Source: Muribaculum sp.
Lineage (GTDB): Bacteria; Bacillota; Clostridia; Lachnospirales; Lachnospiraceae
DNA length: 48,919 bases
Direction: 5' to 3'
Assembly (NCBI GenBank): GCA_023663735.1
Contig: JAMPGV010000012.1
Span: 1-48,919, forward strand
A program made the position numbers and the translations under genes. The notes under the pieces were generated by a model, which was not told the origin of the DNA, did no database searches, and saw only the letters and a list, made by a program, of their open reading frames with translations. Of the stretch, positions 31,448 through 47,616 are shown piece after piece; the first letter of the stretch is position 1; each line of letters opens with the position of its first letter.

Positions 31448-31642
31448 CGATCATAGAGGACCATGGATCCGTGCCGCCAAGGCAGGATAGTACGAATGGA
31501 TTCGTCTTGCAAAGATTGTGCCTGCGGCTCAAATCGCAGGTTGCGGAAAGGCATGGTTATTAAAAGAAAATTAAGAAAACAAGAAATTCAGGAGACAGGA
31601 AACGGGAAGATATGCCGCGGATGCGGCGGAACGGAGGCAGAC
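31448..31642 (+). other. RND operon leader with hairpins
   Basis: This leader has an in-frame open extension upstream of the chosen start, with poor ribosome sites. It contains hairpins ACGAA/TTCGT and CCTGCG/CGCAGG (the latter around 31522-31541). No recognised riboswitch. Confidence 0.4.
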
Positions 31643-33100: not shown

Positions 33101-36100
33101 AGCTGACACAACTTGCATTGAAAAGGCCGGTATCCTGTATGCTGGCCATTCTGGCGCTGGCAGTCTTCGGTATTTCTTCCATCTTCGGCTTTAAGCTGCA
33201 GTTGATTCCCGATATCGAGATGCCCATGCTGATCGTGATGGCCACTTACCCCGGAGCGGATCCCCAGAGCGTGGACGAACTGGTGGTTTCCGTGATCGAA
33301 GACGCCGGTTCTTCTTTAAGCGGTGTGGATTCTACCACCACCATGTCCTATGAAAACTACGGCATGGTGCTGTTTACATACGAGTATGGCGTGGATATTA
33401 CGGAGTGCCACGACGACTTGAGGGCGGCGCTGGAGGTGGCGAGGCTTTCCATGCCCGATGATGCGGGCGATCCCACTATCATCGAGATGAATGTCAACAG
33501 CATGGAGTGTATGATGATTTCCGCGACGGAGACCGGGGACGTGGATCTGTTGAAAGTGGTCAACGAGTCCGTGGTGCCGGAGCTGGAAGCCCTTTCCGGG
33601 GTGGCGCAGGTCTCGGTCAACGGCGGCAGCGAGGAATATATCCGAATCGAATTGAACGATACGCTGATGAACCAATACGGGCTGACCATGAACAGCATCG
33701 CACAGTTTCTGGCGGCTGTGGATTTCTCCTATCCCGCGGGCAGTGTGGGACAGGGGAATCAGGAAATCAGCATTACGACCTCCATGGAGTACAATACTGT
33801 GCAGAAACTCAGGGAGGTTCCCATTATGACGGGGACGGGGCAGGTTCTCACGCTGCAGGATGTGGCCAATGTGACTATGTCCACGAAAGAGGCGGAGAGC
33901 TTGAGCCGGTATAACGGTCTGGACAATCTGAGCATCGGAATCCAGAACAAGAGCAGCTTCGGCACCGTAAACGTGTGCCGGGACGTGGAGCGGGAGCTGG
34001 AGCGGATTCAAGCGAGGGTTCCGGCCGTAGAGTTTCAGATCACTTATGACGCCAGCGAATCGATTATCGACTCGCTGACGGCGGTGTTTGAGACCCTGCT
34101 TCTGGGCGTGGCGCTGACGATGCTGGTATTGTTCCTGTTTTTCGGAGATTTCAAGGCCAGCTTGATCGTAGGCTCCTCCATGCCGATCTCCCTGCTCTTT
34201 ACGTTGATTGTCATGAGTCTTATGGGATTTTCCCTGAATATCGTAACCATGGGATCGCTGGTAATCGCCATCGGCATGATGGTGGACGCCTCCATCGTGG
34301 TGATCGAGAGCTGTTTCCGAAAGCAGCGGGAAGATCTGTCCGTGCAGGAGGCGGTGTTTGAGGGAGCCAAGGAAGTGACCGCTTCCATTGTGGCCTCCAC
34401 CATCACCACCATCGTGGTGTACCTGCCGCTTGCGCTGATGAAGGGACTGTCCGGCCAGCTGTTTTCCCAGCTGGGCATGACCATTGTGCTGGCCATGCTG
34501 GCGTCTCTGATCGCCGCACTGATGCTGGTGCCGCTGTTCTTCTGTGTCTTTAAGCCTAAGGAGAAGGAAAATCTCCCGGTGGATAAGCTGTTGAATAAAG
34601 TTACGGGTCTTTATCGGAGAAAAATGCCCGGGCTGCTTCACCGGAAGAAGACCGTCCTGTTCGTCTCGGTGCTTCTTCTGGTGGTATCGTTTGTGATCGC
34701 GGGATTTTTGAATGTGGAGATGATTCCTTCCGCCGACGAGGGAATGGTTTCCGTCTCGCTGAATTTCCGCTCCGGAACCTCTCTTGAGCGCAAAGACGCG
34801 GCTGTCAGGGAATGGGAGCAGATTGCGGCGGCACATCCCGATGTGTCGGGGTACAGTATTTCTGTGAGCAGTACGGGAGCCAGTATGTCCGCAACCCTCA
34901 AAAAAGACCGCGCCATGTCCACGGCACAGGTGGTGGATGCGTGGAACGAATTGGGCGCAGGCATGACCGGCGTGGATGTGACAGTGGCGTCCAGCGGAAG
35001 CAGCATGAGTTCCATGATGAGTACCGGAAGCTATGAGATCGATCTGCAGGGGCATTCCATGGAGGATCTGCGCACGGCCGCGGATCTGCTCTCGGAGGCC
35101 ATGCGGGGCGTGGACGGCGTGGTCAAAGTAGACAACTCGCTGGCCAATGCCTCCACGCTGGTAAAGGTGGACGTCGATCCGATGAAAGCGATGCAGTATG
35201 GCTTGACTCCCATCTCTGTGGGAATGACTTTGAACAATGTACTCAGCGGCATCAAGGCGCTGACCATCACCAATGCGGGATCCGAGTACGAGGTGCGGCT
35301 GGAGTATCCGGAGGGGCAGTACGATGACTTAAACCAGCTGATGGATCTGATGCTGCCCACCTCCGCAGGAATTAATATTCCGCTGCGCGATATCGCAGAG
35401 CTGATCTATACGGAGGGGCAGGAGAGCATTTCGCGGCAGAACGGACTCTATTTCGTGAGCGTCACGGCCACGCTAAATTCTGAGAAGACTTTTGAGGCGC
35501 AGGCGGATATCAACGCGCTTGTGGAGGCGCTGGAGTTCCCCCAGAGCGTGACCCCGGCGGACAGTATGATGACGGATATGATGAACGAGGAGCTGCTCGC
35601 TATTTTTGAGGCGATCCTGACAGCCGTTTTCTTAGTGTTTCTGGTGATGGCGATGCAGTTTGAATCGCCCAGATTCTCGATCATGGTGATGACCTGTATT
35701 CCGTTTGCCTTGATCGGTTCCTTCCTGCTGTTGTGGATCACGGGGCAGACGCTCAGCATGATCTCGCTGATGGGATTTTTGATGCTCATGGGAATCGTGG
35801 TGAACAACGGTATTTTGTTCGTGGACTCCACGAATATGCTGCGGCTGGAGATGACGGTGGAGGATGCGCTGGTGGAATCCGGCTGTATCCGTCTGCGCCC
35901 GATTCTGATGACGACGCTGACCACCATTCTGTCCATGGTGCCGTTAGGCATCGGGATCGGCACCAATGCGGTCATGATGAAGGGCATGGCCTTGGTAATC
36001 ATCGGCGGCCTGATAGCGTCCACGATTTTGACGATGCTTCTGATTCCCAGCTTCTACTTGATTCTGGATAAGAAGAGCAAGGATAAGAGGAAAGCGGGAA

Positions 36101-36153
36101 AGAACAGAAGAAGCGGAAAGGATGCGGCGGCAAATCCGGCAGCGGAGGCATAG
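33097..36153 (+). CDS. RND-family efflux pump (HAE1/AcrB-like)
   Basis: The 1018-residue pump has 12 expected membrane helices: one N-terminal (R-P-V-S-C-M-L-A-I-L-A-L-A-V-F-G), a five-helix block around residues 330-480 and the mirrored second half. The large outer loops (about 40-325 and 545-830) are typical of RND carriers, as is the G-M-M-V-D-A-S-I-V-V-I-E-S motif in the central helices (proton relay region) and M-G-I-V-V-N-N-G-I-L in the second half. Substrates may be toxic hydrophobic compounds. The ATGA overlap with the adaptor implies a fixed partnership. The C-terminus is a basic tail. Confidence 0.93.
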   Translation: MKLTQLALKRPVSCMLAILALAVFGISSIFGFKLQLIPDIEMPMLIVMATYPGADPQSVDELVVSVIEDAGSSLSGVDSTTTMSYENYGMVLFTYEYGVDITECHDDLRAALEVARLSMPDDAGDPTIIEMNVNSMECMMISATETGDVDLLKVVNESVVPELEALSGVAQVSVNGGSEEYIRIELNDTLMNQYGLTMNSIAQFLAAVDFSYPAGSVGQGNQEISITTSMEYNTVQKLREVPIMTGTGQVLTLQDVANVTMSTKEAESLSRYNGLDNLSIGIQNKSSFGTVNVCRDVERELERIQARVPAVEFQITYDASESIIDSLTAVFETLLLGVALTMLVLFLFFGDFKASLIVGSSMPISLLFTLIVMSLMGFSLNIVTMGSLVIAIGMMVDASIVVIESCFRKQREDLSVQEAVFEGAKEVTASIVASTITTIVVYLPLALMKGLSGQLFSQLGMTIVLAMLASLIAALMLVPLFFCVFKPKEKENLPVDKLLNKVTGLYRRKMPGLLHRKKTVLFVSVLLLVVSFVIAGFLNVEMIPSADEGMVSVSLNFRSGTSLERKDAAVREWEQIAAAHPDVSGYSISVSSTGASMSATLKKDRAMSTAQVVDAWNELGAGMTGVDVTVASSGSSMSSMMSTGSYEIDLQGHSMEDLRTAADLLSEAMRGVDGVVKVDNSLANASTLVKVDVDPMKAMQYGLTPISVGMTLNNVLSGIKALTITNAGSEYEVRLEYPEGQYDDLNQLMDLMLPTSAGINIPLRDIAELIYTEGQESISRQNGLYFVSVTATLNSEKTFEAQADINALVEALEFPQSVTPADSMMTDMMNEELLAIFEAILTAVFLVFLVMAMQFESPRFSIMVMTCIPFALIGSFLLLWITGQTLSMISLMGFLMLMGIVVNNGILFVDSTNMLRLEMTVEDALVESGCIRLRPILMTTLTTILSMVPLGIGIGTNAVMMKGMALVIIGGLIASTILTMLLIPSFYLILDKKSKDKRKAGKNRRSGKDAAANPAAEA

Positions 36154-36203
36154 GACGTAGCGCTTCCTGCGTGGACGTCGTGAAGGAAGTTTGAGAACGA
36201 ATT

Positions 36204-36255
36204 TTCAAACGATCGCTTGGCGGCGGTATCGCGGGTAGAACCTGCGATATGCGGG
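36204..36255 (+). repeat. Structured ~53-nt leader element, copy 2 (ahead of tetR)
   Basis: It begins TTCAAACG, contains TTGGCGGC, the hairpin CGCGGGT-AGA-ACCTGCG (36230-36246) and ATATGCGGG, whose final G-run doubles as the ribosome site of the TetR gene. It resembles 26529-26582. A stem GTTTGAGAA/TTTTCAAAC (36189-36197/36202-36210) precedes it. Confidence 0.75.
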
Positions 36256-36264
36256 GGTATAAAT

Positions 36265-36894
36265 ATGGGAAAGATGACAGGTTTGGAGCCGAGGCGGGAG
36301 ATTCCCCCCAAGGTGCTGCTGATGTACGAAGCCGTACAGCAATTAATCGGCGAGGGGATGAGCGTGAACGAGATCCGCGTTTCGTCCATCACGGAGCGGG
36401 CGGGGATCGGCAAGGGAACGGCATATGAATATTTTGATTCCAAAGAAGAGATTCTGGTGGGAGCGTTTATCTATTATCTGAGCGGGCTGGCCGAGGAACT
36501 CAACGGCACGCTCTCCAAGCTGGGGGGGCTTCGGGAGCAGATCAATTATATTTTTGACGAGCTTGACCGGGAGAGCATGAAAAAGTACTGCTTCATCCAC
36601 TTTGTCCATGAAGCGACCGACAATTCCCGGTTCGGGCAGGTGTTGAAGGAGAAAATGCGGGAGCATTCCCTAAAGGGGAATCTGGTGGAATTCCTGTTCG
36701 GGGATCTGATCCGGCAGGGCATTGCCAGAGGGGACATCAATCCGGACATTCCCATGGATTATCTGGTCTATACGGTGTTCTGCAAGGTGCTGACGTATAT
36801 GATGTGTATCTGCACGGAGGATTGTTTCCAGACGGATGTGCAGACGCTCAGGGGGCTGATTATTGAAGGGATTCTGAGGGATATGCAGGGATGA
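36265..36894 (+). CDS. TetR-family regulator of the RND operon
   Basis: The ATG at 36265 follows GGGGG by about 8 nt; the in-frame start at 36217 would lie in the structured element. The 209-residue product has a TetR HTH at about 35-75 (E-I-R-V-S-S-I-T-E-R-A-G-I-G-K-G-T-A-Y-E-Y-F) preceded by a short basic N-terminus, and a helical ligand domain with four cysteines. It lies 111 nt after the pump gene. It probably represses the operon through the 31430-31447 palindrome; that link is inferred. Confidence 0.85.
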   Translation: MGKMTGLEPRREIPPKVLLMYEAVQQLIGEGMSVNEIRVSSITERAGIGKGTAYEYFDSKEEILVGAFIYYLSGLAEELNGTLSKLGGLREQINYIFDELDRESMKKYCFIHFVHEATDNSRFGQVLKEKMREHSLKGNLVEFLFGDLIRQGIARGDINPDIPMDYLVYTVFCKVLTYMMCICTEDCFQTDVQTLRGLIIEGILRDMQG

Positions 36895-36920
36895 GACGAG
36901 GGGCGGAGACGCCCCTCGTC
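36895..36920 (+). terminator. Terminator ending the RND-tetR operon
   Basis: A perfect 11-bp stem pairs GACGAGGGGCG (36895-36905) with CGCCCCTCGTC (36910-36920) around GAGA. The T-run is short. It marks the boundary where base composition drops. Confidence 0.8.
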
Positions 36921-36959
36921 TTATGATAACATGATAAAAAGAGTGCCTTAGCCCTATCT

Positions 36960-37015
36960 CATGTTAATGTTGACATTGGTAAAATGATTGTATAAAATAT
37001 TATTATATTAACATG
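36960..37015 (+). promoter_or_regulatory. RiPP-locus promoter flanked by perfect inverted repeats
   Basis: TTGACA (36970-36975) is 17 bp from TAAAAT (36993-36998), or 15 bp from TATAAA (36991-36996). The pair is enclosed by CATGTTAAT (36960-36968) and ATTAACATG (37007-37015), a perfect 9-bp inverted repeat with one arm just upstream of -35 and one just after -10. A further TAACATG lies near 36927. This looks like a two-site operator. Confidence 0.65.
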
Positions 37016-37037
37016 TAATAATATCGGCGCGGAACGG

Positions 37038-37070
37038 ATAATTTTAATTTAAAGGAAGCATTAAAATTAT
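37038..37070 (+). promoter_or_regulatory. Start-codon hairpin of the first radical SAM gene
   Basis: ATAATTTTAAT (37038-37048) pairs perfectly with ATTAAAATTAT (37060-37070). The ribosome site AAAGGAAG lies in the 11-nt loop and the ATG (37069-37071) begins in the 3' arm, so pairing could modulate initiation. Confidence 0.6.
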
Positions 37071-38325
37071 GATAGATTTGAGAAAGAAATACCAAAAGTC
37101 AATGTTTCTTTGGCCAATTTCAAGAGCAGATAAAAGTATTCTGTGCCATATAGGAAATGGAAAAAGTGTAAGGATTCCTCTAGAATGCTGGGAAACAATT
37201 CAAAAGTATATAAATGATTATACCCCTATGGAAATTTGCCTTGCAGCAGATAAAATTGACCGCGAGTATTATAGAGATATTTTTGAACATCTGATTAATA
37301 GCAAAATCCTTGTTTTACCACACGAAGAGCATTGTCAGGTTATTGATTTATCTATTACTTGTCGGTGCAATCTTAACTGTAAACATTGTTGCGAACCCGC
37401 TCAGTCCATAGATGGAGAAGATCCGTTGTCTACAACGGATTGGAAAAATATTATTGATAAAATTACAACAGCTGGCGTAAAGTATGTGACCATAACAGGA
37501 GGAGAGCCAATGGTTAGGTCAGATTTTGTTGAGTTGACGCAGTTTTTAAAGGCGAAAAGAGATGTTCGTAAGGGTTTGATGACAAATGGTACATTGATAG
37601 ATGAGAGTAATGTGGATGTGATTATTGATACATATTCTGATATTAGCATTAGCCTTGACGGGTATGATGAAGAAACTTGTTCAAAGATTAGAGGTACAGG
37701 AATCTTTAAGATGGTAATTAGAAGTGTCAACTTATTGAAAGAAAGGGGGTTTCCACTAGTAAATCTATCAGTGTCTATGGTAGAAACTGCATATACGCAA
37801 GGAAAAAGGAAAATTTTCGAAGATTTGTGCAAAAAGCTAAATGTAAATCCCATTATACGCGATTTCAGTGAGAGTGGTCGTGGAAAAATAAATTCCTTGG
37901 AAATTAAACCGCAAGAAATAGAAAGCATATATGAGAAGACACGGAAAAACAGAGAATTAATTGATGCAATTAAGCAAATGCCGAGAAGTGTTTGCCAAAA
38001 CTGTTCGGCGGGGAGAACAAAATTAGCAATTAATCATAATGGTGATATTTTTCCATGTATGCCATTGGAGAATCCTAAATATTGTTTAGGTAATATTTTA
38101 AAAGAGGAGTCGTTGGATCAAATATTAAAGGACAATGACAATAGCGGGCGTAAAAATTTTGAACGGCTCTTAATTAGTGGGCGTTCAAAATGTGCAAACT
38201 GTGATGTCGCTCCATTTTGCATGTATTGTTTAGATGACTTTGAACAGGACGCAAGGCGAATGGGAATAGATGCGATTTGTAAGATGAGAAAGGAATATTT
38301 ATCGGAGATCATATGGGGAAGTTAA
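37069..38325 (+). CDS. Radical SAM/SPASM peptide maturase with PqqD-like N-terminal domain
   Basis: The 418-residue enzyme likely modifies the precursor peptide at 39360. Residues 1-85 look like a winged-helix RiPP recognition (PqqD-like) domain. The radical SAM core follows: C100-x3-C104-x2-C107 (C-N-L-N-C-K-H-C) binds the [4Fe-4S] cluster and T-G-G-E-P (143-147) contacts SAM. The SPASM region holds the auxiliary-cluster cysteines 309, 312, 330, 339, 375, 378, 384, 387 and 404. Enzymes of this build form thioether or carbon-carbon crosslinks in peptides; the actual bond cannot be read here. It is very AT-rich, unlike the upstream genes, and overlaps the next gene by 13 nt. Confidence 0.88.
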   Translation: MIDLRKKYQKSMFLWPISRADKSILCHIGNGKSVRIPLECWETIQKYINDYTPMEICLAADKIDREYYRDIFEHLINSKILVLPHEEHCQVIDLSITCRCNLNCKHCCEPAQSIDGEDPLSTTDWKNIIDKITTAGVKYVTITGGEPMVRSDFVELTQFLKAKRDVRKGLMTNGTLIDESNVDVIIDTYSDISISLDGYDEETCSKIRGTGIFKMVIRSVNLLKERGFPLVNLSVSMVETAYTQGKRKIFEDLCKKLNVNPIIRDFSESGRGKINSLEIKPQEIESIYEKTRKNRELIDAIKQMPRSVCQNCSAGRTKLAINHNGDIFPCMPLENPKYCLGNILKEESLDQILKDNDNSGRKNFERLLISGRSKCANCDVAPFCMYCLDDFEQDARRMGIDAICKMRKEYLSEIIWGS

Positions 38326-39311
38326 TAGGCTTTACAATATGGGTTACAGCGGCATGTAATATGGGGTGCAAGTATTGTTACGAAGGACAAGACAAATTTG
38401 GTATTAATATGAATGGGCGTATTGCAAATCAGGTGGCCAAATGGATTATTGATATGATGAGAAAAAAGAAAATGCAATATGCTATCATACGTTTTCATGG
38501 AGGTGAACCTACATTAAACATACCTATAATTAAACAGATTATAAAAACGTTTGAACATGTATCGAAATTGAATTTTTTATATTATATAACTACCAATGGA
38601 TATTCTATTTCTGATGAAGATATCTTGTATCTTTCAGAACATTTTTCGGACATTTCAATCAGTTTGGATGGCATGGAGAAAAGCCATGATACATATAGAA
38701 TGGATCAGTATGGTCGAGGCACCTTTCAAAGTGTTTTAGATACGGCGAAAAGAATGAATGCTATATTTCCTAAAATGTGGATTAGGATGACGATAAGATC
38801 AAGTGAGTGCGTTGATTTTAATGATAATATACATTTTCTTGTTAGCATAGGTTTTAAAAATATTGCGGCGGCTATTGATCTTGGCGATGAGGAATGGTCA
38901 GCTTCGACTATTGATTTGCTTCGAAATCAGTGTTTGAAAATTAAAAAAGAGTTTAAAGATAAAAAGGGGTATAGGTTGCAAATTCCTTTTGGAAATGAGG
39001 TCGCAAATCTTTGCGTTTGTGACAGTGGACTTGAGAGATTTGATATTGATCCTATGGGAAGGTTATATCCTTGTACATATGCGATTGAAGAAAAGGAGTT
39101 ATGTCTTGGCGATGTTTTTGATGGAATAAATGAAGAGGTTTTAGGAAGGGTCAGATCTATATGTGAGGAGGAACTTGCAAATTGTAAAGGGTGTGGCGGA
39201 TATAAAAGTTGCGTTTCCGTTAGATGCAAATTTATTAATAAAAAACACACAGGCGACTATTTTACGGCAATGCCGTTGGTATGTGAAGTTCACAGACGTG
39301 AACTGCAATAA
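38313..39311 (+). CDS. Second radical SAM/SPASM enzyme (anSME/sactisynthase-like)
   Basis: The 332-residue enzyme has C15-x3-C19-x2-C22 (C-N-M-G-C-K-Y-C) followed by Y-E, the F-H-G-G-E-P SAM motif and a full SPASM set (Cys 234, 236, 254, 264, 291, 294, 300, 305, 324). It lacks an N-terminal recognition domain, so it may rely on the first enzyme to hold the peptide or act after it. The C-x3-C-x2-C-Y-E form resembles anaerobic sulfatase maturases and several peptide-crosslinking enzymes. Overlap with the first enzyme's gene implies co-translation. AT-rich like its neighbour. Confidence 0.88.
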   Translation: MGKLIGFTIWVTAACNMGCKYCYEGQDKFGINMNGRIANQVAKWIIDMMRKKKMQYAIIRFHGGEPTLNIPIIKQIIKTFEHVSKLNFLYYITTNGYSISDEDILYLSEHFSDISISLDGMEKSHDTYRMDQYGRGTFQSVLDTAKRMNAIFPKMWIRMTIRSSECVDFNDNIHFLVSIGFKNIAAAIDLGDEEWSASTIDLLRNQCLKIKKEFKDKKGYRLQIPFGNEVANLCVCDSGLERFDIDPMGRLYPCTYAIEEKELCLGDVFDGINEEVLGRVRSICEEELANCKGCGGYKSCVSVRCKFINKKHTGDYFTAMPLVCEVHRRELQ

Positions 39312-39359
39312 AGATAGAAATTTGTTCTACACACATTAATATCAAGGAGGTTGGTGCAA

Positions 39360-39545
39360 ATGAAATTAGAAGTTAAAAAAATTAATAAGAAAATTGAGCT
39401 AGATACGACAGCAGAAAAATGTACTGCATGTATGCATGTAAATTTTGATGCATATAGCAAGGAGGCTTATGAAGAAGGTATAACTGCGTGCTATACTGGA
39501 GTTTCGTATGATCGGCAATATATGCCAATCGGTTCATTGGGATAA
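39360..39545 (+). CDS. Putative RiPP precursor peptide
   Basis: The ATG at 39360 lies 9 nt after a perfect AGGAGG (39345-39350), the strongest ribosome site of the locus, as expected for a precursor; a TTG at 39351 is not needed. The 61-residue peptide has a basic N-terminal leader (K-L-E-V-K-K-I-N-K-K-I-E-L-D) and three cysteines (21, 24, 44). Its C-terminal part contains two related modules: T-A-C-x4-F-D-A-Y (22-32) and T-A-C-x5-Y-D-R-Q-Y (42-54), ending M-P-I-G-S-L-G. It has no tryptophan and no hydrophobic signal. I do not recognise it as a named RiPP family. It sits between the modifying enzymes and the protease/transport genes. Confidence 0.75.
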   Translation: MKLEVKKINKKIELDTTAEKCTACMHVNFDAYSKEAYEEGITACYTGVSYDRQYMPIGSLG

Positions 39546-39580
39546 TTTGTAATTTATGATTAAATGTGTGTAGAGGAAAT

Positions 39581-39609
39581 AATTTGCAGGGCGGAATGCC
39601 CTGCAAATT
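39581..39609 (+). terminator. Hairpin between precursor and protease genes
   Basis: A perfect 12-bp stem pairs AATTTGCAGGGC (39581-39592) with GCCCTGCAAATT (39598-39609) around GGAAT. The downstream T-run is weak, so it may be a partial terminator or an RNA-stabilising 3' end that raises precursor mRNA over the downstream genes. Confidence 0.7.
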
Positions 39610-39620
39610 TATAAAGAATT

Positions 39621-41033
39621 ATGCGAAAATCAAAATATCCGTTGATAGCTGTCATTGATACTGGAATAGGTGAAAATGTTAGTTATAAGGAATCTATAGT
39701 AGGCGGCTGTTCTTTTTTTATTGAAAATCAAACCATTTTTATGGATACGGAATTTTTAGACAGGATAGGACACGGTACTTGTGTGTGTTCAATGATTCGA
39801 AGAAAATGTCCAAGTGTTAAATTCTATATTGTGAAAATATATGAAGATATGATGATCACGTCTTCATTGCTTTTATTACAAGCATTGGAACATCTGAAAA
39901 AAATACCTGTAAAATTTATTAATATATCGCTATCGGTTAATAGCGAGTCAAATAAAGAGCAAATTAAGAAGGCTTTATATAGTTTATACAAACAAGGAAA
40001 AATTATAATAGTTTCTGTAAAGAATAGAATGAAAGAGTCTTTTCCTGCAAATTGTGAGTTCTGTTATGGAGTTAAGGGACTCAAAGATCTAAATGAAAAT
40101 ATTTATATTTTTCAAGAAAAAAGTAGAATACAATTAAAAACAAATGGTTCTCCAGAATATGTTGAGTCCATTAATAGTAAAAACGAGTGGTTTTATGGAA
40201 ATAGCAAAGCGACAGCGTGTGCAACAGGCCTATTAGCCAGAATATATGCAGAACATTGCGAGATGATACCAAGAATTTCAATGGACATTATGAATGCTTG
40301 GTTGGATGAGAAGACGGGACTATTGGAAAAGCAAGAATGCGGGAGAATACAGATGGAAAAAATTGCAAAAATGATTCAGGTGTGTCGAACTTATGGAAGT
40401 GGAGACAATGCCGTAAAAGCGTTAAAAAATGTGGATGTAGAAATTGAGAGAGGAGAATTTGTGGCTGTTGTAGGGGCGTCGGGAAGCGGTAAAAGCACGT
40501 TTTTAAACATTTTAGGCGGATTAGATGTTCCGACTTCCGGAACCGTTATCATTGACGGAAAGGAATTACAAGGAATGAGCGATGAGAGTCTTACGATATT
40601 TAGGCGGGAAAATATCGGATTTGTCTTTCAAAATTATAATTTGATTCCGATGCTTACGGCGTATGAAAATATTCTTCTGCCGATTCAAATTGGCGGAAAA
40701 GATGTAGATACGGATGATATTCGCAAAATAATAGAATTTTTAAAGCTGGAGGGACTTGAAAACCGTTTGCCTTCGCAATTGTCGGGTGGACAACAGCAAC
40801 GGGTTGCTATCGCAAGGGCGCTGGCCTCCAAACCTGCTGTTATTTTGGCAGATGAACCGACTGGAAATCTGGATTCTGAAAGTGGTAAAAATGTGGTGGA
40901 ATTGTTTGAAAAACTGGTAAAAGAACTGGGACAGACTGTAGTTATGATTACACACAATGAAGCTCTTGCAGTCAAGTGCGACCGTATTTTGGTAATGAAG
41001 GACGGAGTGCTTTCGGAGGCTGAAAATGCGTAA
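39621..41033 (+). CDS. Cytosolic subtilisin-like protease fused in frame to a MacB-type ABC ATPase
   Basis: The 470-residue frame joins two domains. Residues 1-244 are an S8 (subtilisin) peptidase: Asp13 in A-V-I-D-T-G-I-G, His51 in G-H-G-T, oxyanion Asn135 in V-K-N-R, and nucleophile Ser195 in G-N-S-K-A-T. It has no signal peptide or propeptide, so it acts in the cytosol, consistent with leader removal. Residues 245-470 are a MacB/LolD-type ATPase: Walker A G-A-S-G-S-G-K-S-T (285-293), L-S-G-G-Q, Walker B I-L-A-D-E-P-T-G-N-L-D. An internal ATG at 40353, 7 nt after GGGAG, could start the ATPase separately (226 residues). Composition is AT-rich in the first half and less so in the second, which suggests a recombination join. 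The ribosome site of the full ORF is weak. Confidence 0.8.
   Translation: MRKSKYPLIAVIDTGIGENVSYKESIVGGCSFFIENQTIFMDTEFLDRIGHGTCVCSMIRRKCPSVKFYIVKIYEDMMITSSLLLLQALEHLKKIPVKFINISLSVNSESNKEQIKKALYSLYKQGKIIIVSVKNRMKESFPANCEFCYGVKGLKDLNENIYIFQEKSRIQLKTNGSPEYVESINSKNEWFYGNSKATACATGLLARIYAEHCEMIPRISMDIMNAWLDEKTGLLEKQECGRIQMEKIAKMIQVCRTYGSGDNAVKALKNVDVEIERGEFVAVVGASGSGKSTFLNILGGLDVPTSGTVIIDGKELQGMSDESLTIFRRENIGFVFQNYNLIPMLTAYENILLPIQIGGKDVDTDDIRKIIEFLKLEGLENRLPSQLSGGQQQRVAIARALASKPAVILADEPTGNLDSESGKNVVELFEKLVKELGQTVVMITHNEALAVKCDRILVMKDGVLSEAENA
40353..41033 (+). CDS. Possible independently initiated ABC ATPase (internal start within the fusion)
   Basis: The alternative product starts at the ATG at 40353 with GGGAG at 40341-40345 and would begin M-E-K-I-A-K-M-I-Q-V-C-R-T-Y-G, a natural N-terminus for the MacB-type family. 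It overlaps the FtsX permease gene by 8 nt. Whether the cell makes the fusion, the short form or both is undecided. Confidence 0.5.
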   Translation: MEKIAKMIQVCRTYGSGDNAVKALKNVDVEIERGEFVAVVGASGSGKSTFLNILGGLDVPTSGTVIIDGKELQGMSDESLTIFRRENIGFVFQNYNLIPMLTAYENILLPIQIGGKDVDTDDIRKIIEFLKLEGLENRLPSQLSGGQQQRVAIARALASKPAVILADEPTGNLDSESGKNVVELFEKLVKELGQTVVMITHNEALAVKCDRILVMKDGVLSEAENA

Positions 41034-43572
41034 AAAGACCAGAACTTTGAAGTATGTAATTCAAATTGCACGGCGTATTTACCGGGCAGATCGGAAAAGA
41101 AACGTTGCAGCCATAATTGTTTTGTCCACGGCGGTTCTAGTTCTAATGACTGCTTTTATGACGGATGATTCCTTGAAGGACATGCAGAATTGGCGGAATT
41201 TGCAAACGTTTGGAACGGTAGCGGAGGGAGAGTATCTTGGAGTCATGCCGGAGGACTATGAAAAGCTGAAAGAATCCGCGGCATTTACCGATATTTCTTA
41301 TCGTATTTACCTTGGTTCCGTGGCTGGAGAGGGCGGTGTGAGGACAGAAGTGTATTATGCGCCTGAGAAAGCTGCGGATTGGTGTTTTCATGGAATGGTG
41401 GAGGGTCAGTGGCCGATGCTGGCGGACGAGCTGGTGGTGGATGAAATTTATGCGTCCGATAGGGAGTTGAAGACCGGTGATCTTGTGGAACTGGATGTCA
41501 CGGTGGATGGCCATCGAATTCAAGAGGAATTCAGGGTGTCCGGGATTTGCAGCAGCAATCGTGTAAGTGGGATATCCAGCTTGTTTGTTTCTGAAGCATT
41601 TGCGAGAGAGGCTGTGGGGAGAAAAGCCCTTACTGTATATTGTCGGTTTCCATATACGGAATTTTCAGAAAATTTGTTATTGCAGGTCTGGAAGGCGGCA
41701 ATACCGGGGGTAGAACCCGTGTATCATTTAAATGCGGCCTATAGCGAGGGGGATAATCAAAAGATATCCGGTACAAATTTCCTTTTAGGTTTTCTATTTT
41801 TTGTGGTGGTATATCTGGCAATTTATACGCTCTATTCTATTTCACTTGCGAAGGATGTAAAATTGTTTGCATGTTTGAAGATGCAAGGGGTTACCGCTGC
41901 GCAATGCGCTACGATTCTGTGGGTGCAGTTTGCATATATTTATAGCGCTGCCTTAGCGCTGGGTGTGTGTCTGGGAGTGGGAGTGTGTAAGACCATGGTA
42001 CCATTCTTTATGAACGACCGCTTTCAATCCGCGGATGCAGTTGGTATATTTCGATGGGAAAATATTCTGTATGCGGCGGCAATCGTATTGTTTGCAGGGG
42101 TTATGGGAGTTAGGAAACCCTTGAAAATTTTAAGAAAAATGCCGCCGATTCATGCTGCAGTCTTCAGCGAATTCCAGAAGAATCAAAGAAGAAGCGGCAA
42201 AGCTGTAAAAATGTCGATTTTCCGTCTGGCTTTGCGAGGACTTGGCCGGAATCCCAGACGTTTCTGGCTTGTGTCGATGTCCACTTTTGCGGCAGTGTTT
42301 TTGTTTACCTGTATTGTCAATCTTGTGGAAACTGAGACGGCTAGTTATATTGCGTCTAGGCAACAGCCTGCGGATTTTCTAATTGGTACAAGGGAGTTTT
42401 GCAATTATTATCTGGATTCCCTTTCAGAGGATAGGATAGGTCATTCTCCTTTTTCACAGGGAGGAGATCGATGGAGCATGGGGATTGATCTGGTGAATCA
42501 GGTAGAAAGGCATTGTCCGGAGGCACAGATTCAGCCATTTTATTATACCTTCGGAATCAATCTGAACGAGGAAATCAGCGGACGGCTGGAGGCTTTGCTC
42601 AGGGATGGCAAAATAGCGGAAAGGGACAGTTTGGGAAGGAGTTATTATGAGGAACAACTGTCCGACCGCGCCAAAGCCAATTATCGTTCTTTTTGGACGG
42701 AAATGCGTTATTATGTGAATTTTGATGTGCTGGAGGAGTGCCGAGTGCTTGAGGGGACGCTTGACGAGGACAAATTTGAATCGGGTAATTATGTGGTGAT
42801 GATTTCCAATCAGACATTTGCGGGGAGCGGAACTCTTTACCATGTAGGAGAAACGGTGTGTTTGGATCATTTTCCGGAAGGCGTCAGTTATGTGCGGCAG
42901 AAGGATGGATATCTGGAGATACAGGGGGGCATTGCACAGGAGTATGAAGTTATGGCAGTTGTGGATCAGGTGCCGCTTATGTGTGCCTATCTGGGTGCGC
43001 CATTGGTGATTTTTCTGCCAGCTTGCAACATTCCAGAGGAGGACGGTATGTATCAGCTTTGCGCAATTGGAGTCAATGCGGAGGATACAGCGGCTCTGGA
43101 ACCAGTCATTAAACAGATCGTTTATGCAGCGGGGGAGGATTTGTATTACTTATCCTATGAAGTGATTCGGGAAGAGGCGGCGGAGGCAGTACGCATGATA
43201 TGGATATTGGGAGGAAGTCTGGCGTTAGTGGTGGCGGCGATGGCCGGAATCAATTTTGTGAATTATATGCTGACGGGAATCATGGAAAGAACGGAAGAGT
43301 TGACGATCTTGAGAGCGATTGGCATGACGCAAAGGCAGCTTTGTGCCATGCTCCGATGGGAAAACTTGATTGTGTCCGCAGGAGCGGCATTATGCGGCTT
43401 TGGAGTGGGAATGGCGGGGTGCGGCATTTTGTTCGGCAGCTGTTGGACGGAAGTCTTTCAAGTCTGCAAATTGAATCCGATTCCCGGGCTGATTCTGATC
43501 GTGGTTTTGGCGGTATTGGCATGTGTATGCTCCGAGCGCAATGCAAGAATGGAAATTAGGCAACATGATTGA
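41026..43572 (+). CDS. FtsX-family ABC transporter permease (immunity or export)
   Basis: An 848-residue permease with about eight membrane helices: one near residue 30-48, three around 250-365 (F-L-L-G-F-L-F-F-V-V-V-Y-L-A), one near 415-435, and three at the C-terminal end (L-A-L-V-V-A-A-M-A-G-I-N-F-V-N-Y-M, then G-A-A-L-C-G-F-G-V-G-M-A-G, then L-I-L-I-V-V-L-A-V-L-A). Large outer loops lie between, the FtsX/MacB duplication pattern. It overlaps the MacB-type ATPase by 8 nt, forming one transporter. In bacteriocin loci such pairs often give self-immunity; that is an inference. GC is higher than in the radical SAM genes. Confidence 0.82.
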   Translation: MRKKTRTLKYVIQIARRIYRADRKRNVAAIIVLSTAVLVLMTAFMTDDSLKDMQNWRNLQTFGTVAEGEYLGVMPEDYEKLKESAAFTDISYRIYLGSVAGEGGVRTEVYYAPEKAADWCFHGMVEGQWPMLADELVVDEIYASDRELKTGDLVELDVTVDGHRIQEEFRVSGICSSNRVSGISSLFVSEAFAREAVGRKALTVYCRFPYTEFSENLLLQVWKAAIPGVEPVYHLNAAYSEGDNQKISGTNFLLGFLFFVVVYLAIYTLYSISLAKDVKLFACLKMQGVTAAQCATILWVQFAYIYSAALALGVCLGVGVCKTMVPFFMNDRFQSADAVGIFRWENILYAAAIVLFAGVMGVRKPLKILRKMPPIHAAVFSEFQKNQRRSGKAVKMSIFRLALRGLGRNPRRFWLVSMSTFAAVFLFTCIVNLVETETASYIASRQQPADFLIGTREFCNYYLDSLSEDRIGHSPFSQGGDRWSMGIDLVNQVERHCPEAQIQPFYYTFGINLNEEISGRLEALLRDGKIAERDSLGRSYYEEQLSDRAKANYRSFWTEMRYYVNFDVLEECRVLEGTLDEDKFESGNYVVMISNQTFAGSGTLYHVGETVCLDHFPEGVSYVRQKDGYLEIQGGIAQEYEVMAVVDQVPLMCAYLGAPLVIFLPACNIPEEDGMYQLCAIGVNAEDTAALEPVIKQIVYAAGEDLYYLSYEVIREEAAEAVRMIWILGGSLALVVAAMAGINFVNYMLTGIMERTEELTILRAIGMTQRQLCAMLRWENLIVSAGAALCGFGVGMAGCGILFGSCWTEVFQVCKLNPIPGLILIVVLAVLACVCSERNARMEIRQHD

Positions 43573-45217
43573 ATGGTTTATACAAAATCGTAAAAATATA
43601 AAGAAATGTATATTGCAAACAGAAAAAAGTTCTATTCGGGTATTTATGTTGTGTGTAATATGTTCGATCATATCTATTTTAATGCCCATTTTTAATATGA
43701 AACTTGTAAACTTATTTGTTTATGAAAGATTTGAAATGCGGCATGGAATTTATTTCTGCTTCTATGTGGTATTAGTTGTTGTTGCCAATTGTTTGGGATA
43801 TGTTGTTCAAGTTACCCGTACAAGAGTAGAAAATTCAATGCAATCCTATATAAACAATACAATAATTGAAGATTGCATCGAAAAGAAACTTGAGAATTAT
43901 TGTGAAACGGAATCAACCAACACAGATGTTTTAATTAAAAGTGATGCATCTCTCTATCAACAATTTATATGTATTTTTCTTTTTGATTATCCATTTATGG
44001 CGTTCAAAGTAGTTGCTGTCTTTGTGATTTTAGTTTTGTTAGAACCTATTGTGGCGCTGACAGTTTTGTGTCTGGAAGTTTTAGTCACTGTATTACAGAG
44101 ACAGCTTTGCAAACCGGTAGAAATGCAGTCATGTGTAGTTAGGAATAGTTTGGTGGGGTTCTTTGGTGTGGTTAATGATATTGTTGGCAATAGTTCCGTA
44201 ATCAAGTCCATAGGGGCAGGAAGTTATCTGAAAGAGAGGGCTAAGATTCAATTTGAGCGATATGCGGAAGACAGAACCCAACAAACAAGATATTCTGCCA
44301 GAGCCAGCCTCATTATAGAAACATTGCTTAGTGTAAATATGTTGAGTGTTTTAGGAATGGGAAGTTATAAGATATATAGAGGAGCTATGTCTATTGGTGC
44401 ATTGTTATCGCTGGTGCAATATGTTGGTTTGTTTATATCGGTATTTACATCTCTTAGTGAAAATACGGTTATGCTTCACTCAGTGAAAAGCAAGCTGAAG
44501 GGGATATCAGATGTTCTTGCGAAACATGTGCGGGTAGAGCCGATATTCAAAGAGACTCCCCCGTTTGACGCAGTACGGATTTGTGGCTTGTCTTTTTGTT
44601 ATTCCGAGAAAATAATTATTTTTGACCAAGCGTCTGCCACATTTAGAAGGGGGAATTTGAATTGTATCTGTGGAGCAAGTGGAAGCGGAAAATCTACGCT
44701 AATAAAATTATTATTAGGTGAATATTCCCCAGAAGAAGGAAGTTTGGGACTCACATATAATGAGGAGTCCACAGGGAAATTGAAAGCGGATATGATTGCC
44801 TATGTTCCACAGGAGAACGTTTTTTTTTCAGATACAGTCTGGGGCAATATTGGCTTTAACGGTGTTGGATCAAAAGAAGATGCGTATGAAGTGTGCAGAC
44901 AATGTTCTATTTATGATGAAATAGAGGCATCAGAGAATGGATTTAATTCAATGGTAAATAATAGTATTAAAAATTGGTCAGGGGGGCAAATGAAACGTCT
45001 GGCTATTGCGCGCGCAATATTACAGAACAAAGAGATATTGCTATTAGATGAACCGACGGCAGGGTTAGATATGGAGAACACAGAAAAAGTGTTGGAGTGT
45101 ATCAAAAGATATGCCAGAGAAAAATTGGTGATTGTAGTTACACACGATCCATCTATTGAAAGGTGTGCGGATGTTGTGTATAATATAGAAAACCAAAAGT
45201 TAAAAAGAATTGTTTAA
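43565..45217 (+). CDS. ABC exporter half-transporter without peptidase domain
   Basis: The preferred start is the ATG at 43565 (M-I-E-W-F-I-Q-N-R-K-N), overlapping the permease stop by 8 nt; upstream in-frame starts at 43523 and 43541 are within the permease gene. The 550-residue product has a type IV membrane domain (about 1-320, six helices) and a nucleotide-binding domain with Walker A C-G-A-S-G-S-G-K-S-T, signature W-S-G-G-Q, Walker B I-L-L-L-D-E-P-T-A-G-L-D. It has no C39 peptidase, consistent with the separate subtilisin-like domain doing leader cleavage. AT-rich, like the radical SAM genes. It most likely exports the mature peptide. Confidence 0.85.
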   Translation: MIEWFIQNRKNIKKCILQTEKSSIRVFMLCVICSIISILMPIFNMKLVNLFVYERFEMRHGIYFCFYVVLVVVANCLGYVVQVTRTRVENSMQSYINNTIIEDCIEKKLENYCETESTNTDVLIKSDASLYQQFICIFLFDYPFMAFKVVAVFVILVLLEPIVALTVLCLEVLVTVLQRQLCKPVEMQSCVVRNSLVGFFGVVNDIVGNSSVIKSIGAGSYLKERAKIQFERYAEDRTQQTRYSARASLIIETLLSVNMLSVLGMGSYKIYRGAMSIGALLSLVQYVGLFISVFTSLSENTVMLHSVKSKLKGISDVLAKHVRVEPIFKETPPFDAVRICGLSFCYSEKIIIFDQASATFRRGNLNCICGASGSGKSTLIKLLLGEYSPEEGSLGLTYNEESTGKLKADMIAYVPQENVFFSDTVWGNIGFNGVGSKEDAYEVCRQCSIYDEIEASENGFNSMVNNSIKNWSGGQMKRLAIARAILQNKEILLLDEPTAGLDMENTEKVLECIKRYAREKLVIVVTHDPSIERCADVVYNIENQKLKRIV

Positions 45218-45240
45218 GTTATTGTCAGGGAGAGCAGCCA

Positions 45241-47475
45241 ATGAAAAAAGCGAAAAAAGTCGTTGCACTTGCGTTGATTTTGTGTCTGGCGTTATCAGGC
45301 TGCGGGCAGCCGCGCCAAACTCAGTCAAAAGAGGTTTCGGACATGCTGTATGCCTATCGTTCGGAACCTTGTTCCGTGGAGGGACTGGACGAGGGATTTG
45401 CCATGGAACTGACTGCGGACGGCACATGGATCTATGCGGTCATGGCGAAGTCGGATGCGGAATCGGGCGGCGTGAAAAAATGGTTTACGGGATACCGTGC
45501 AGAGGACGGGGAAACGAAGCAGGTGGAGACGGACGGAGCGGAAAAGGCCATGCTGTTGCAGGTTGCCGCAGGAGAGGACGGAGCGTTCTGGGGAGTTCTC
45601 TATCAGGTGGAGGCGGGTGTGTTTACGGAATTTTCCGTAAATCGATATGATGAAACCGGTAAAGTGCTGGAGTCCAAGGATCTGGCCGAACTTTTGATGG
45701 AGGAGACCGGCGGATATCCTTACGGGCATTGTGTACAGATTGGCCGGGACGGCAGCCTGTATCTGGGGTATGCGGACGGCGGGAATTCCGTCTTGTCTGC
45801 GATCTCGCAGGCGGGGCAGGTACTCTTCCGCACAGGCGTGGCCGGAACCGTGGAGAGAACGGTTTTGTCTGACGACGGACACCTGTATGCGGCGGTAAAG
45901 CGCGAAGAGGACACGCTGGAGCTTCTATCGGTGGACGCTCTGTCGGGCGAGTCCCGGACGCTTGTCAAGGATCTGCCGCAGAATATGTCCCGGACGCTTC
46001 TGGCCGTCTCGACAGATGGGAAGAAGCTGTATTATAACGCCTCGGGAGATTTGTACGAGTATGATGTGGCAGACGGGGAGAGCAGGAGACTGTTTGCACT
46101 GGCAGATATGCGCCTTGCAGAGGAAGAACTGGTGGGAGTGGTGCAGGTTGATGCGGAGCATTTTTATTTTCTATCGAATGTACGCAGCGATACCGGGATC
46201 AGCCGGGCGGAATTAAACTGTGTCAGCAGGGCGTCTGCGGACGAGGCAGTGCCGGTACAGGCCAAGGAGGTGCTGAAACTGGCGGTGTTTGCGGAGGATG
46301 ACGACGTGAATCAGGCCGTGGCATGGTTTAACAGACAGTCGAATGATTGTAAAATAGAGATCTGTCTGTACAGCGGGTTGGATGAGACGGACGGGGCGGA
46401 TCGTCTGCAGGCGGACATCGCATCGGGAAAGATACCGGATCTGATTGATCTGGCAGGCGTCGATGGGATGACCTATATCCGGCAGGGGATTGTGGCGGAT
46501 TTAACGCCGCTGCTGGAGCAGGATCCGGAGATCTCCGAGTCGGATTTTGTGGAAAACGCTGTCAGCACCTATCGGTATGGAGAGGGCTTGTATGCAATTC
46601 CCACCATCTTCTGGCTGGATTCGCTGGTGGGAAAGACGTCCTGTCTGGGCGGGAGAACCGGGTGGACGCTGGAGGAATTTCGGGAATACGCGGATGCGCT
46701 GCCGGATCCCGGAGCCGCCACGGCGGGAGCGTCCAAGGAGGAAATGTTCAACCGAATTATGATTCAATATGCGGAGCGTTATATCGACTGGGAGAACGGG
46801 ACTTGTTCTTTTGACAGCGGAGAGTTCTTGGAGCTTCTGGACTTTGTGAACCGATTCCCGGATCATGCGGTGGAAGACGAGGAACAGATCGTGGACAAGA
46901 TCCGCGCGGACAAGATGCTCCTGTATCCGACGACCATGAATTGTGCGATCGCGTTTCAGCTCAATCAGGCCATCTTCGGCGAGGAGACGACCTATATCGG
47001 CTTCCCGTCGGAGAGCGGCAGCGGAAGCAAGATGATGATTTTTGGCAATGCGTTCGGCATCTCACAGAATTGTAAAAATAAGGACGCCGCGTGGGCGTTT
47101 TTGAAATCTATGTATACCAGCGACTCCAAAACCATAGACGGGTTCCCGACGTACAAAGCCTCTCTGGAGAAAGCGTTTGATTTCGCTTCCATGGGAACAT
47201 ACCGCACGGATGAAAACGGAGTCCGCACGGAGGAACCGAAATATGAGCTGCCTTATGGCGGCCTGACGTTTGAGATTTATGCGGCGACCGACGAGGAGAT
47301 TGGGCAGCTTAGGAGTTTGATCGAAAATGCAGAGCCGGCAGATATTAGAACGCCGGGAATTTATGCGATTTTGCAGGAGGAGGCGTCGGCCTTCTTCGGG
47401 GGGCAGAGAAGCGCGGCGGAGGCCGCGGACATCATGCAGAGCCGTGTTTCGCTCTATATCAATGAACGCCGGTAA
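45241..47475 (+). CDS. Two-part lipoprotein: N-terminal beta-rich sensor-like domain plus solute-binding domain
   Basis: The 744-residue lipoprotein has a signal ending L-A-L-S-G-C (lipid-attached Cys21). Residues about 35-370 are rich in short beta strands with repeated D-G-x-(L/I)-Y/W-(Y/L/I) turns (D-G-T-W-I-Y, D-G-S-L-Y-L, D-G-H-L-Y-A, D-G-K-K-L-Y-Y), resembling a beta-propeller. Residues about 370-744 resemble a family 1 extracellular solute-binding protein (L-A-V-F-A-E-D-D-D-V-N-Q-A-V-A-W-F-N, I-P-D-L-I-D-L-A-G). The ligand is probably a saccharide or peptide. It starts 24 nt after the exporter, with GGGAG upstream. GC-rich again, so it is probably native to the host chromosome or has a different history from the RiPP genes. 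Membership in the RiPP system is undecided. Confidence 0.78.
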   Translation: MKKAKKVVALALILCLALSGCGQPRQTQSKEVSDMLYAYRSEPCSVEGLDEGFAMELTADGTWIYAVMAKSDAESGGVKKWFTGYRAEDGETKQVETDGAEKAMLLQVAAGEDGAFWGVLYQVEAGVFTEFSVNRYDETGKVLESKDLAELLMEETGGYPYGHCVQIGRDGSLYLGYADGGNSVLSAISQAGQVLFRTGVAGTVERTVLSDDGHLYAAVKREEDTLELLSVDALSGESRTLVKDLPQNMSRTLLAVSTDGKKLYYNASGDLYEYDVADGESRRLFALADMRLAEEELVGVVQVDAEHFYFLSNVRSDTGISRAELNCVSRASADEAVPVQAKEVLKLAVFAEDDDVNQAVAWFNRQSNDCKIEICLYSGLDETDGADRLQADIASGKIPDLIDLAGVDGMTYIRQGIVADLTPLLEQDPEISESDFVENAVSTYRYGEGLYAIPTIFWLDSLVGKTSCLGGRTGWTLEEFREYADALPDPGAATAGASKEEMFNRIMIQYAERYIDWENGTCSFDSGEFLELLDFVNRFPDHAVEDEEQIVDKIRADKMLLYPTTMNCAIAFQLNQAIFGEETTYIGFPSESGSGSKMMIFGNAFGISQNCKNKDAAWAFLKSMYTSDSKTIDGFPTYKASLEKAFDFASMGTYRTDENGVRTEEPKYELPYGGLTFEIYAATDEEIGQLRSLIENAEPADIRTPGIYAILQEEASAFFGGQRSAAEAADIMQSRVSLYINERR

Positions 47476-47487
47476 AACGCCCATTTA

Positions 47488-47616
47488 CCTTTCGTGTTGA
47501 TGACCGTTTCGTTTTTGCTTTCTCACGGCTGTATGCAGCTGATCCTGCCGCCGGATAAGATTGATGCGTGGATTGATCCCTCGCAAGGGCGGAGGCTCTG
47601 GTATCGCATGATTTGA
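47488..47616 (+). pseudogene. Decayed fragment of a SRAP (YedK/HMCES-like) domain
   Basis: In the frame of 47533, the fragment reads P-F-V-L-M-T then H-G-C-M-Q-L-I-L-P-P-D-K-I-D-A-W-I-D-P, ending at TGA 47614-47616. The H-x-x-M-x-x-I-L-P-P-x-x-x-x-x-W-(I/L)-D-P stretch is the well-known C-terminal segment of SOS-response-associated peptidases that crosslink abasic DNA. No start, no catalytic Cys2 and no upstream part remain, so it is a remnant. Confidence 0.55.

Follow-up and report, generated by a model that had tools for sequence, protein, structure and literature searches.

The window, a stretch of 48,919 nucleotides from Muribaculum sp. (contig JAMPGV010000012.1), contains at positions 36960-45217 a compact cassette on the + strand in which two radical SAM enzymes (rSAM1 and rSAM2), a 61-aa ORF, a fusion of an S8 peptidase with a MacB-type ATPase, an FtsX-type permease and an ABC exporter follow one another. 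The cassette seems to be a branch of a family that is widespread and, apparently, unnamed. On the sequence evidence the locus is likely to encode a RiPP system belonging to this family, which is made up of rSAM1, rSAM2, a precursor with three cysteines, an S8 peptidase and usually an exporter, and for which a full pathway is proposed below. A first-pass annotation of this DNA had described the parts as co-directional, with overlaps or short gaps between them; every part that it named is present, on the same strand. The draft genome to which this contig belongs is 87% complete. Its features are:

36970..36998, + strand: promoter-like site TTGACA-N17-TAAAAT upstream of the cassette (11/12 consensus matches; consensus only)
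37069..38325, + strand: rSAM1, radical SAM/SPASM enzyme of 418 aa (Pfam Radical_SAM 89.8 bits, SPASM 38.1 bits)
38313..39311, + strand: rSAM2, radical SAM enzyme of 332 aa, overlapping rSAM1 (Pfam Radical_SAM 58.7 bits)
39345..39350, + strand: ribosome site AGGAGG of the precursor (from the sequence)
39360..39545, + strand: precursor peptide of 61 aa, start ATG 39360 (family alignment A3; leave-out HMM)
39581..39609, + strand: 12-bp hairpin between the precursor and the S8 gene (z -4.2 for 39546-39625 against 200 shuffles)
39621..40361, + strand: S8 (subtilisin-like) peptidase domain of the fusion (Pfam S8 44.4 bits; catalytic residues)
40362..41033, + strand: MacB-type ABC ATPase domain of the fusion (family HMM residues 248-466, 318 bits; N-terminal alignment)
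41026..43572, + strand: FtsX-type permease of 848 aa that pairs with the ATPase (two stretches matching Pfam FtsX, 62.3 bits)
43565..45217, + strand: ABC exporter (Pfam ABC_membrane 28.5 and ABC_tran 90.4 bits), its start an assumed in-frame ATG in a listed ORF that begins at GTG 43523
45156..45184: promoter-like TTGAAA-N17-TATAAT, candidate own promoter of the lipoprotein gene (consensus)
45241..47475, + strand: solute-binding lipoprotein of 744 aa (homologues beside or fused to MacB-FtsX in genome G805 and locus L017)

The precursor of the window appears to comprise a conserved leader of about residues 1-20 and a core of about residues 21-61 with Cys21, Cys24 and Cys44, the border between them being putative. 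The good ribosome site that the first-pass annotation had seen before the 61-residue ORF is there, with AGGAGG preceding the ATG at 39360. In an alignment of 27 family precursors the three cysteines are invariant and the leader is rich in lysine; in these 27 sequences the leader is also less variable than the core (mean column entropy 1.84 versus 2.66 bits). A model built from 37 sequences finds 75 precursors at E <=1e-3, spread over 57 loci, among which are the window and some loci not in the set of 70 counted below. All 75 have at least three cysteines, as do 655 of 2,223 further small ORFs of comparable length; CxxDC is present in 70 of the 75 and in 21 of the 2,223, and an aromatic residue or His stands among the last three residues in 64/75. 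The short gene, conserved leader, variable core and adjoining tailoring enzymes are those by which RiPP systems are generally recognised.

Among the five precursors that lack CxxDC, two have Asn and one has Glu for the Asp, while those of the window and of locus L017 are one residue shorter. The core of the window reads CTAC...C and that of L017 CKAC...C; neither has an acid or amide before the second Cys, and the CxxDC...C pattern is absent from both. As judged by alignment, the two form a divergent CxAC branch, in which the leader, the three cysteines and the genes are otherwise as in the family. L017 is from the same genus and is the nearest precursor relative, 51% identical to the window ORF. 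A model built without the window and L017 recovers the window ORF from 20,601 small ORFs (E 5.5e-5, rank 72 of the 112 with E up to 10), and one built without L018 as well still recovers it (E 5.5e-4). That the ORF belongs to the precursor family is therefore an observation beyond chance. As a single query against 392 genomes of the order the precursor, which is too short and variable for this, finds only its own ORF.

The earlier statement that the precursor matches no recognised family agrees with the scans of curated models. No cut-off is reached by the window ORF (NCBIfam and Pfam), by 10 relatives in NCBIfam or by 7 relatives in Pfam, and the highest score is that of one precursor of locus L087, with 15.9 bits to TIGR04118 (cut-off 35). 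The same annotation had called the locus a candidate new system. This holds in so far as the precursors scanned reach no curated cut-off; the word 'new' has to be qualified, since the family to which the cassette belongs is widespread. The hairpin at 39581-39609 probably acts as an attenuator or stabilises the mRNA. Of 29 precursors hand-picked from the 75, the window included, 19 are followed by a hairpin at z -4 or lower, a count that is indicative only and in which the real sequence was searched more finely than the shuffles.

The overlap of the two radical SAM genes (rSAM1 37069-38325, rSAM2 38313-39311) is as previously noted, and Pfam Radical_SAM matches both products, each of which has a CX3CX2C motif. 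Both had also been called SPASM enzymes. For rSAM1 this stands; for rSAM2 the SPASM match of 15.3 bits is below the Pfam cut-off of 21.5, though the enzyme possesses every cysteine that 19 aligned family members (window counted) all share. In rSAM1 the residues C100, C104, C107, C312, C330, C375, C378, C387 and C404 are invariant across 28 aligned sequences including that of the window. rSAM1 has an additional N-terminal region of about 90 aa, in which the sequence searches do not confirm a PqqD-like, leader-binding domain. Pfam PqqD has no match among 6 N-termini of the rSAM1 family; a PqqD family is matched weakly by one of 23 rSAM1-family members (E 0.039), which is not that of the window. 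The profile of this region, A9, finds no related solved structure, and the alignment of the rSAM1 profile to 5wgg begins at residue 21 of the 5wgg chain. For both enzymes 5wgg, which we take to be CteB, the SCIFF thioether enzyme, is the top-scoring solved structure (E 3.1e-52 for rSAM2 with profile A1). Among the NCBIfam models shown, neither enzyme reaches a curated maturase cut-off: the best for rSAM1 is the mycofactocin maturase (TIGR03962, 120.1 bits, cut-off 265) and the best for rSAM2 is the freyrasin-type ranthipeptide maturase PapB (NF047865, 146 bits, cut-off 340). In a Lachnospiraceae MAG (L068:7779-10040) rSAM1 and rSAM2 form a single 753-aa ORF, which argues that both enzymes act on one substrate. 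Plasmids L015 and L016 carry a third radical SAM gene, rSAM1-like, between the precursor or rSAM2 gene and the S8 gene.

The fusion ORF, 39621-41033, encodes 470 aa. Its peptidase had been described as an S8 enzyme with intact Asp, His, Asn and Ser, and these are found as Asp13, His51, Asn135 and Ser195; in the window and 55 relatives the four columns are conserved in 55, 56, 53 and 56 of 56 sequences, respectively. With the catalytic Asp already at residue 13, neither a signal peptide nor a pro-domain would fit ahead of it. The best NCBIfam model is QhpE (93 bits, cut-off 165), to which three relatives score 90-100. Walker A, signature and Walker B motifs can be read in the sequence of the ATPase half. 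In the 14 S8 relatives that were chosen for alignment, the peptidase runs into a tail of about 90 aa. Compared with the PDB, the profile of this tail matches 52 chains at E <=10, of which 45 are named as carrier proteins (two of them as NDUAB1), with a best E of 9.4e-4; Pfam PP-binding is matched weakly by 3/14 tail members (best E 0.0076). In the alignment, which is a weak match, the cofactor-bearing serine falls on a tail position with a non-serine consensus. The tail of the S8 relatives, for example L063:10370-10651, is probably carrier-protein-like and without the cofactor serine. In the window the MacB ATPase stands where related S8 peptidases have this tail.

The MacB/FtsX pair and the peptidase-less exporter of the first-pass annotation are both borne out, the ATPase by the family HMM (318 bits), FtsX by Pfam, and the exporter by its ABC_membrane and ABC_tran domains with no Pfam match to Peptidase_C39. 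The closest relatives of the exporter are in L041 and L068 and those of the radical SAM enzymes in L017 and L018. Since these differ, the exporter is probably a swapped part; the stretch fetched for L017 contains no ABC exporter. The operon may extend to 47475, taking in the solute-binding lipoprotein gene 24 bases 3' of the exporter gene. In G805, of the same genus (L180:874-6542), a MacB that is 75% identical stands beside a 1614-aa fusion of FtsX with a solute-binding protein, the lipoprotein part of which is 51% identical to the lipoprotein of the window, and in the 17 kb read there neither the radical SAM pair nor S8 has a homologue. This arrangement suggests that the lipoprotein is part of a MacB-FtsX module that is able to stand alone, like an immunity device, and the G805 genes are possibly an orphan immunity module. 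L017 has a lipoprotein homologue (39%) 3' of its MacB-FtsX genes. In G286 a 70% homologue lies by a different, GntR-linked ABC gene, so the link of the lipoprotein with MacB-FtsX is not exclusive. The lipoprotein at 45241-47475 probably belongs to the MacB-FtsX module, as far as gene order and similarity indicate. A search for an empty site in 61 genomes of the genus, with the lipoprotein as anchor, matched four (own included), none of them clean.

Base composition sets the cassette apart from its surroundings. In 400-base steps, G+C is about 27-38% over 36800-40200, 40-50% across the ATPase and FtsX, and 28-41% across the ABC exporter, whereas the flanks at 35000-36900 and 45200-47500 have about 49-58%. 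The drop against the flanks and the steps within suggest that the cassette is acquired and mosaic; its acquisition by the host genome is probable on this compositional evidence. Directly upstream, at 31463-36894, an RND-type efflux pair (by reading of the sequence) and a TetR-type regulator have host-like G+C. No regulator gene belonging to the cassette is seen in the window. Elsewhere in the family, agr genes are upstream in plasmids L015 and L016, and genes for a GHKL kinase and a LytTR regulator in L017 and L054. Models of anti-phage defence give superfamily-type matches only (viperin, ATPases).

Related cassettes were first met on C. difficile and P. sordellii plasmids and in Butyrivibrio sp. 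MC2013. A pattern scan of 84,980 species genomes, derived from the rSAM1 alignment, gave 67 loci, which together with three plasmids make up a set of 70. Members of the family occur in Lachnospiraceae, Ruminococcus, Clostridium, Peptostreptococcaceae and Paenibacillus. By profile, rSAM1 is found in 69/70 loci, the exception being L083, a locus that the scan picked up at 22% identity. Both enzymes are present in 63 of the 70 loci, these with a precursor (E 0.01) in 55, with S8 also in 51, with the exporter also in 49 and with MacB and FtsX also in 30. As these loci also supplied the enzyme profiles, the enzyme counts are partly circular, the precursor tests less so. Counted singly by profile, S8 and the exporter are each in 58/70 (53 and 52 in an earlier BLAST tally). 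Absence of the ORF beside homologous radical SAM pairs had been named beforehand as the outcome that would speak against the first-pass proposal; a precursor of the same family is found in 55/70 loci, counted per locus with no requirement that it adjoin the enzymes. The other such outcome, a match to an already characterised RiPP class, likewise did not occur in the curated scans. At E 0.01 there is no precursor match in 13/70 loci. Four of these 13 (L027, L048, L053, L059) are contigs of less than 6 kb, and L024 and L060 have precursor-like ORFs below the threshold; L019, L035, L050 and L057 are among those whose missing precursor match has no such explanation. More than one precursor match occurs in 10/70 loci.

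A precursor profile of 27 rows, the window and L038 among them, matches six of 391 genomes of the class at E 0.001, including its own. Of the other five, G678, G500 and G741 have a full cassette, G437 has a partial one at a contig end, and G461, the weakest match, has none. G678 is L038, which is in the profile, and G500 is L042, which is outside it; two of the four cassette genomes are new to the set. Among 72,556 plasmid records, three cover 80% of rSAM1, the same three as before. Among phage records 25 have a match, none of them covering 80%. The C. difficile precursor (L040) has no match among plasmids, and rSAM2 as a single query finds no relative among viral contigs. Alignment A1 against viral contigs gave 190 loci, and among the best 80 only L089 has precursor-like matches (E 0.5 or better). 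L087 and L089 are variant systems in which the ABC exporter is split, with three neighbouring peptides of YCxxxDCxxDC type; L089 is on a contig of a viral collection. Mirror-tree correlations, in which shared descent and co-evolution are not separable, are positive for 15/15 pairs, and 13 of these lie beyond nearly all permutations, the exceptions being S8-FtsX and FtsX-exporter. The open-access literature yielded no paper recognisably describing the cassette and no reported activity for any family member.

How does the cassette compare with known systems? CcpM (TIGR04068) and the carrier-related protein TIGR04069 presumably constitute one clostridial Cys-rich peptide system. rSAM2 scores 110.6 of the 500 bits required for TIGR04068, and the L063 S8 tail 22.8 of 70 bits for TIGR04069; unlike in that system, the carrier-like domain of the present family sits within the peptidase. 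SCIFF shares with the cassette the similarity of both enzymes to CteB and differs in having six cysteines in 45 residues rather than three conserved ones, the score to the SCIFF maturase being 106.6 bits (cut-off 425). The two-enzyme sactipeptides thuricin CD and ruminococcin C are described as having two radical SAM enzymes per pathway, as here, but rSAM2 has only 56.7 bits to the RumMC model (cut-off 720); no thuricin model is among the matches shown for the cassette enzymes. The closest parallel in logic is QhpD-QhpE-QhpF, where, as described, a small Cys-rich peptide is crosslinked by a radical SAM enzyme, cleaved by a cytoplasmic subtilisin-like enzyme and exported by an ABC transporter; QhpE cuts a 28-residue leader off QhpC, which by then has its three Cys-Asp/Glu thioethers, and ABC export follows (PMC7876137). 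As the cassette S8 resembles QhpE, the cassette follows a similar logic of crosslinking, cleavage and export. It differs from QhpDEF in its two radical SAM enzymes, its precursor and the carrier-like or ATPase tail on its peptidase, and the QhpDEF cut-offs are not reached by rSAM2 (80.9 of 453 bits to TIGR03906) any more than by S8.

PapB-type precursors have CX3D/E repeat spacing. The cassette might be a branch of an annotated kind, either these ranthipeptides or the CXXX-repeat/AC3_0185 systems, to which one more radical SAM enzyme has been added, and we regard this as possible though rather doubtful. PapB is the top NCBIfam model for rSAM2, one L087 precursor weakly matches TIGR04118, and in L186:8751-11585 (G673) a true TIGR04118 precursor lies by a 721-aa rSAM2-like protein (266 bits) that adjoins an S8 peptidase (134 bits), an adjacency seen in one of the two genomes examined. 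The scores are, however, far under the cut-offs of 340 for PapB, 350 for TIGR04115 (88.2 bits for the window rSAM2) and 35 for TIGR04118, which the window precursor does not match at all. The window precursor has neither CX3D nor CXXX repeats, and the cassette differs from PapB systems also in its second enzyme and S8 peptidase. In the two genomes examined, L186 and L187, no rSAM1 lies beside the TIGR04118 members, the L187 match being to an exporter only (L184 was left out). For PapB-type ranthipeptides Cys-Asp and Cys-Glu pairs are described (PMC9413430).

Whether the peptide is instead a cofactor precursor, like those of PQQ or mycofactocin, or a QhpC-like subunit rather than an exported effector was also considered, since the mycofactocin maturase is the top NCBIfam model for rSAM1 and the S8 peptidase resembles QhpE. 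This is quite unlikely given the variable cores, the multiple precursors in some loci, the rarity of the system (the six of 391 genomes, one without a cassette), the carriage on plasmids, the quorum-sensing-type neighbours and the two transport modules; nor is there a dehydrogenase among the annotated genes of three plasmid stretches. A different doubt concerns the S8-MacB fusion, which lies on a single contig of a draft assembly and corresponds to separate genes in most relatives. That it is an assembly or frame artefact is nevertheless very improbable. In L017:15299-16492 the S8 ORF also continues into an ABC-like half, in which Walker A is lost and beside which a separate intact MacB adjoins. 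This half is a weak match (14.6-17.3 bits to the MacB model; no Pfam match), but the L017 and window S8 ORFs give one collinear alignment over residues 10-306 at 40%, so that the S8-ATPase fusion probably predates the window genome and is no assembly error. In L077:10536-13190 S8 is fused to the ABC exporter in a single 884-aa ORF.

The favoured reading, a RiPP system with three-Cys precursors, leads to the following proposed pathway. The 61-aa precursor would be made in excess, aided by its strong ribosome site and the hairpin downstream, and both enzymes would bind its conserved N-terminal leader. The two radical SAM enzymes would act on the same core and couple its conserved cysteines to other residues, in bonds that are most likely thioethers, with a loss of 2 Da per link; thioethers are proposed because the enzymes are similar to thioether-forming ones. 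The cytoplasmic S8 domain would then cut the leader off, by analogy with QhpE, and the ABC exporter would secrete the product, while MacB-FtsX and the lipoprotein may pump it outward or protect the producer. With the peptidase and MacB ATPase in one frame, a coupling of trimming to the pump is probable. A bacteriocin-like or signalling peptide, rather than a cofactor, is the most likely product and fits the multiple precursors, rarity, plasmid carriage, agr genes and GHKL-LytTR pairs.

Which residues would the cysteines be linked to? Asn is described as the thioether acceptor for NxxcA (PMC8326336). In 73/75 precursors the residue before the second Cys is Asp, Asn or Glu, and since these are acceptor kinds of known thioether enzymes, we infer that this residue is an acceptor in the family. 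The core of the window lacks an Asp before the second Cys, and the Cys-Asp link suggested for the family may therefore not apply to it; the window branch would use another acceptor residue. More speculatively, and with only a modest chance of being right, the family could be a separate RiPP class in which two different radical SAM enzymes make two kinds of crosslink on one three-Cys core and the C-terminal domain of the leader peptidase, a carrier fold that in many members no longer has the cofactor serine, hands the product over; in the window branch this fold would be replaced by the ATPase of the MacB-FtsX pump, making cutting and pumping one machine.

The family can now be defined by two enzymes, a three-Cys precursor, a QhpE-like peptidase and an exporter in gut and soil Firmicutes, with 75 precursor sequences. 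Its natural fusions, of rSAM1 with rSAM2 in L068, of S8 with the exporter in L077 and of S8 with MacB in the window, tell which parts cooperate. In the window branch CxxDC has lost its Asp, and this offers a sharp test of the acceptor that the enzymes use. Finally, a carrier-like tail on a leader peptidase, swapped in the window for the ATPase of a pump, raises the question of how cleavage and export are coupled.
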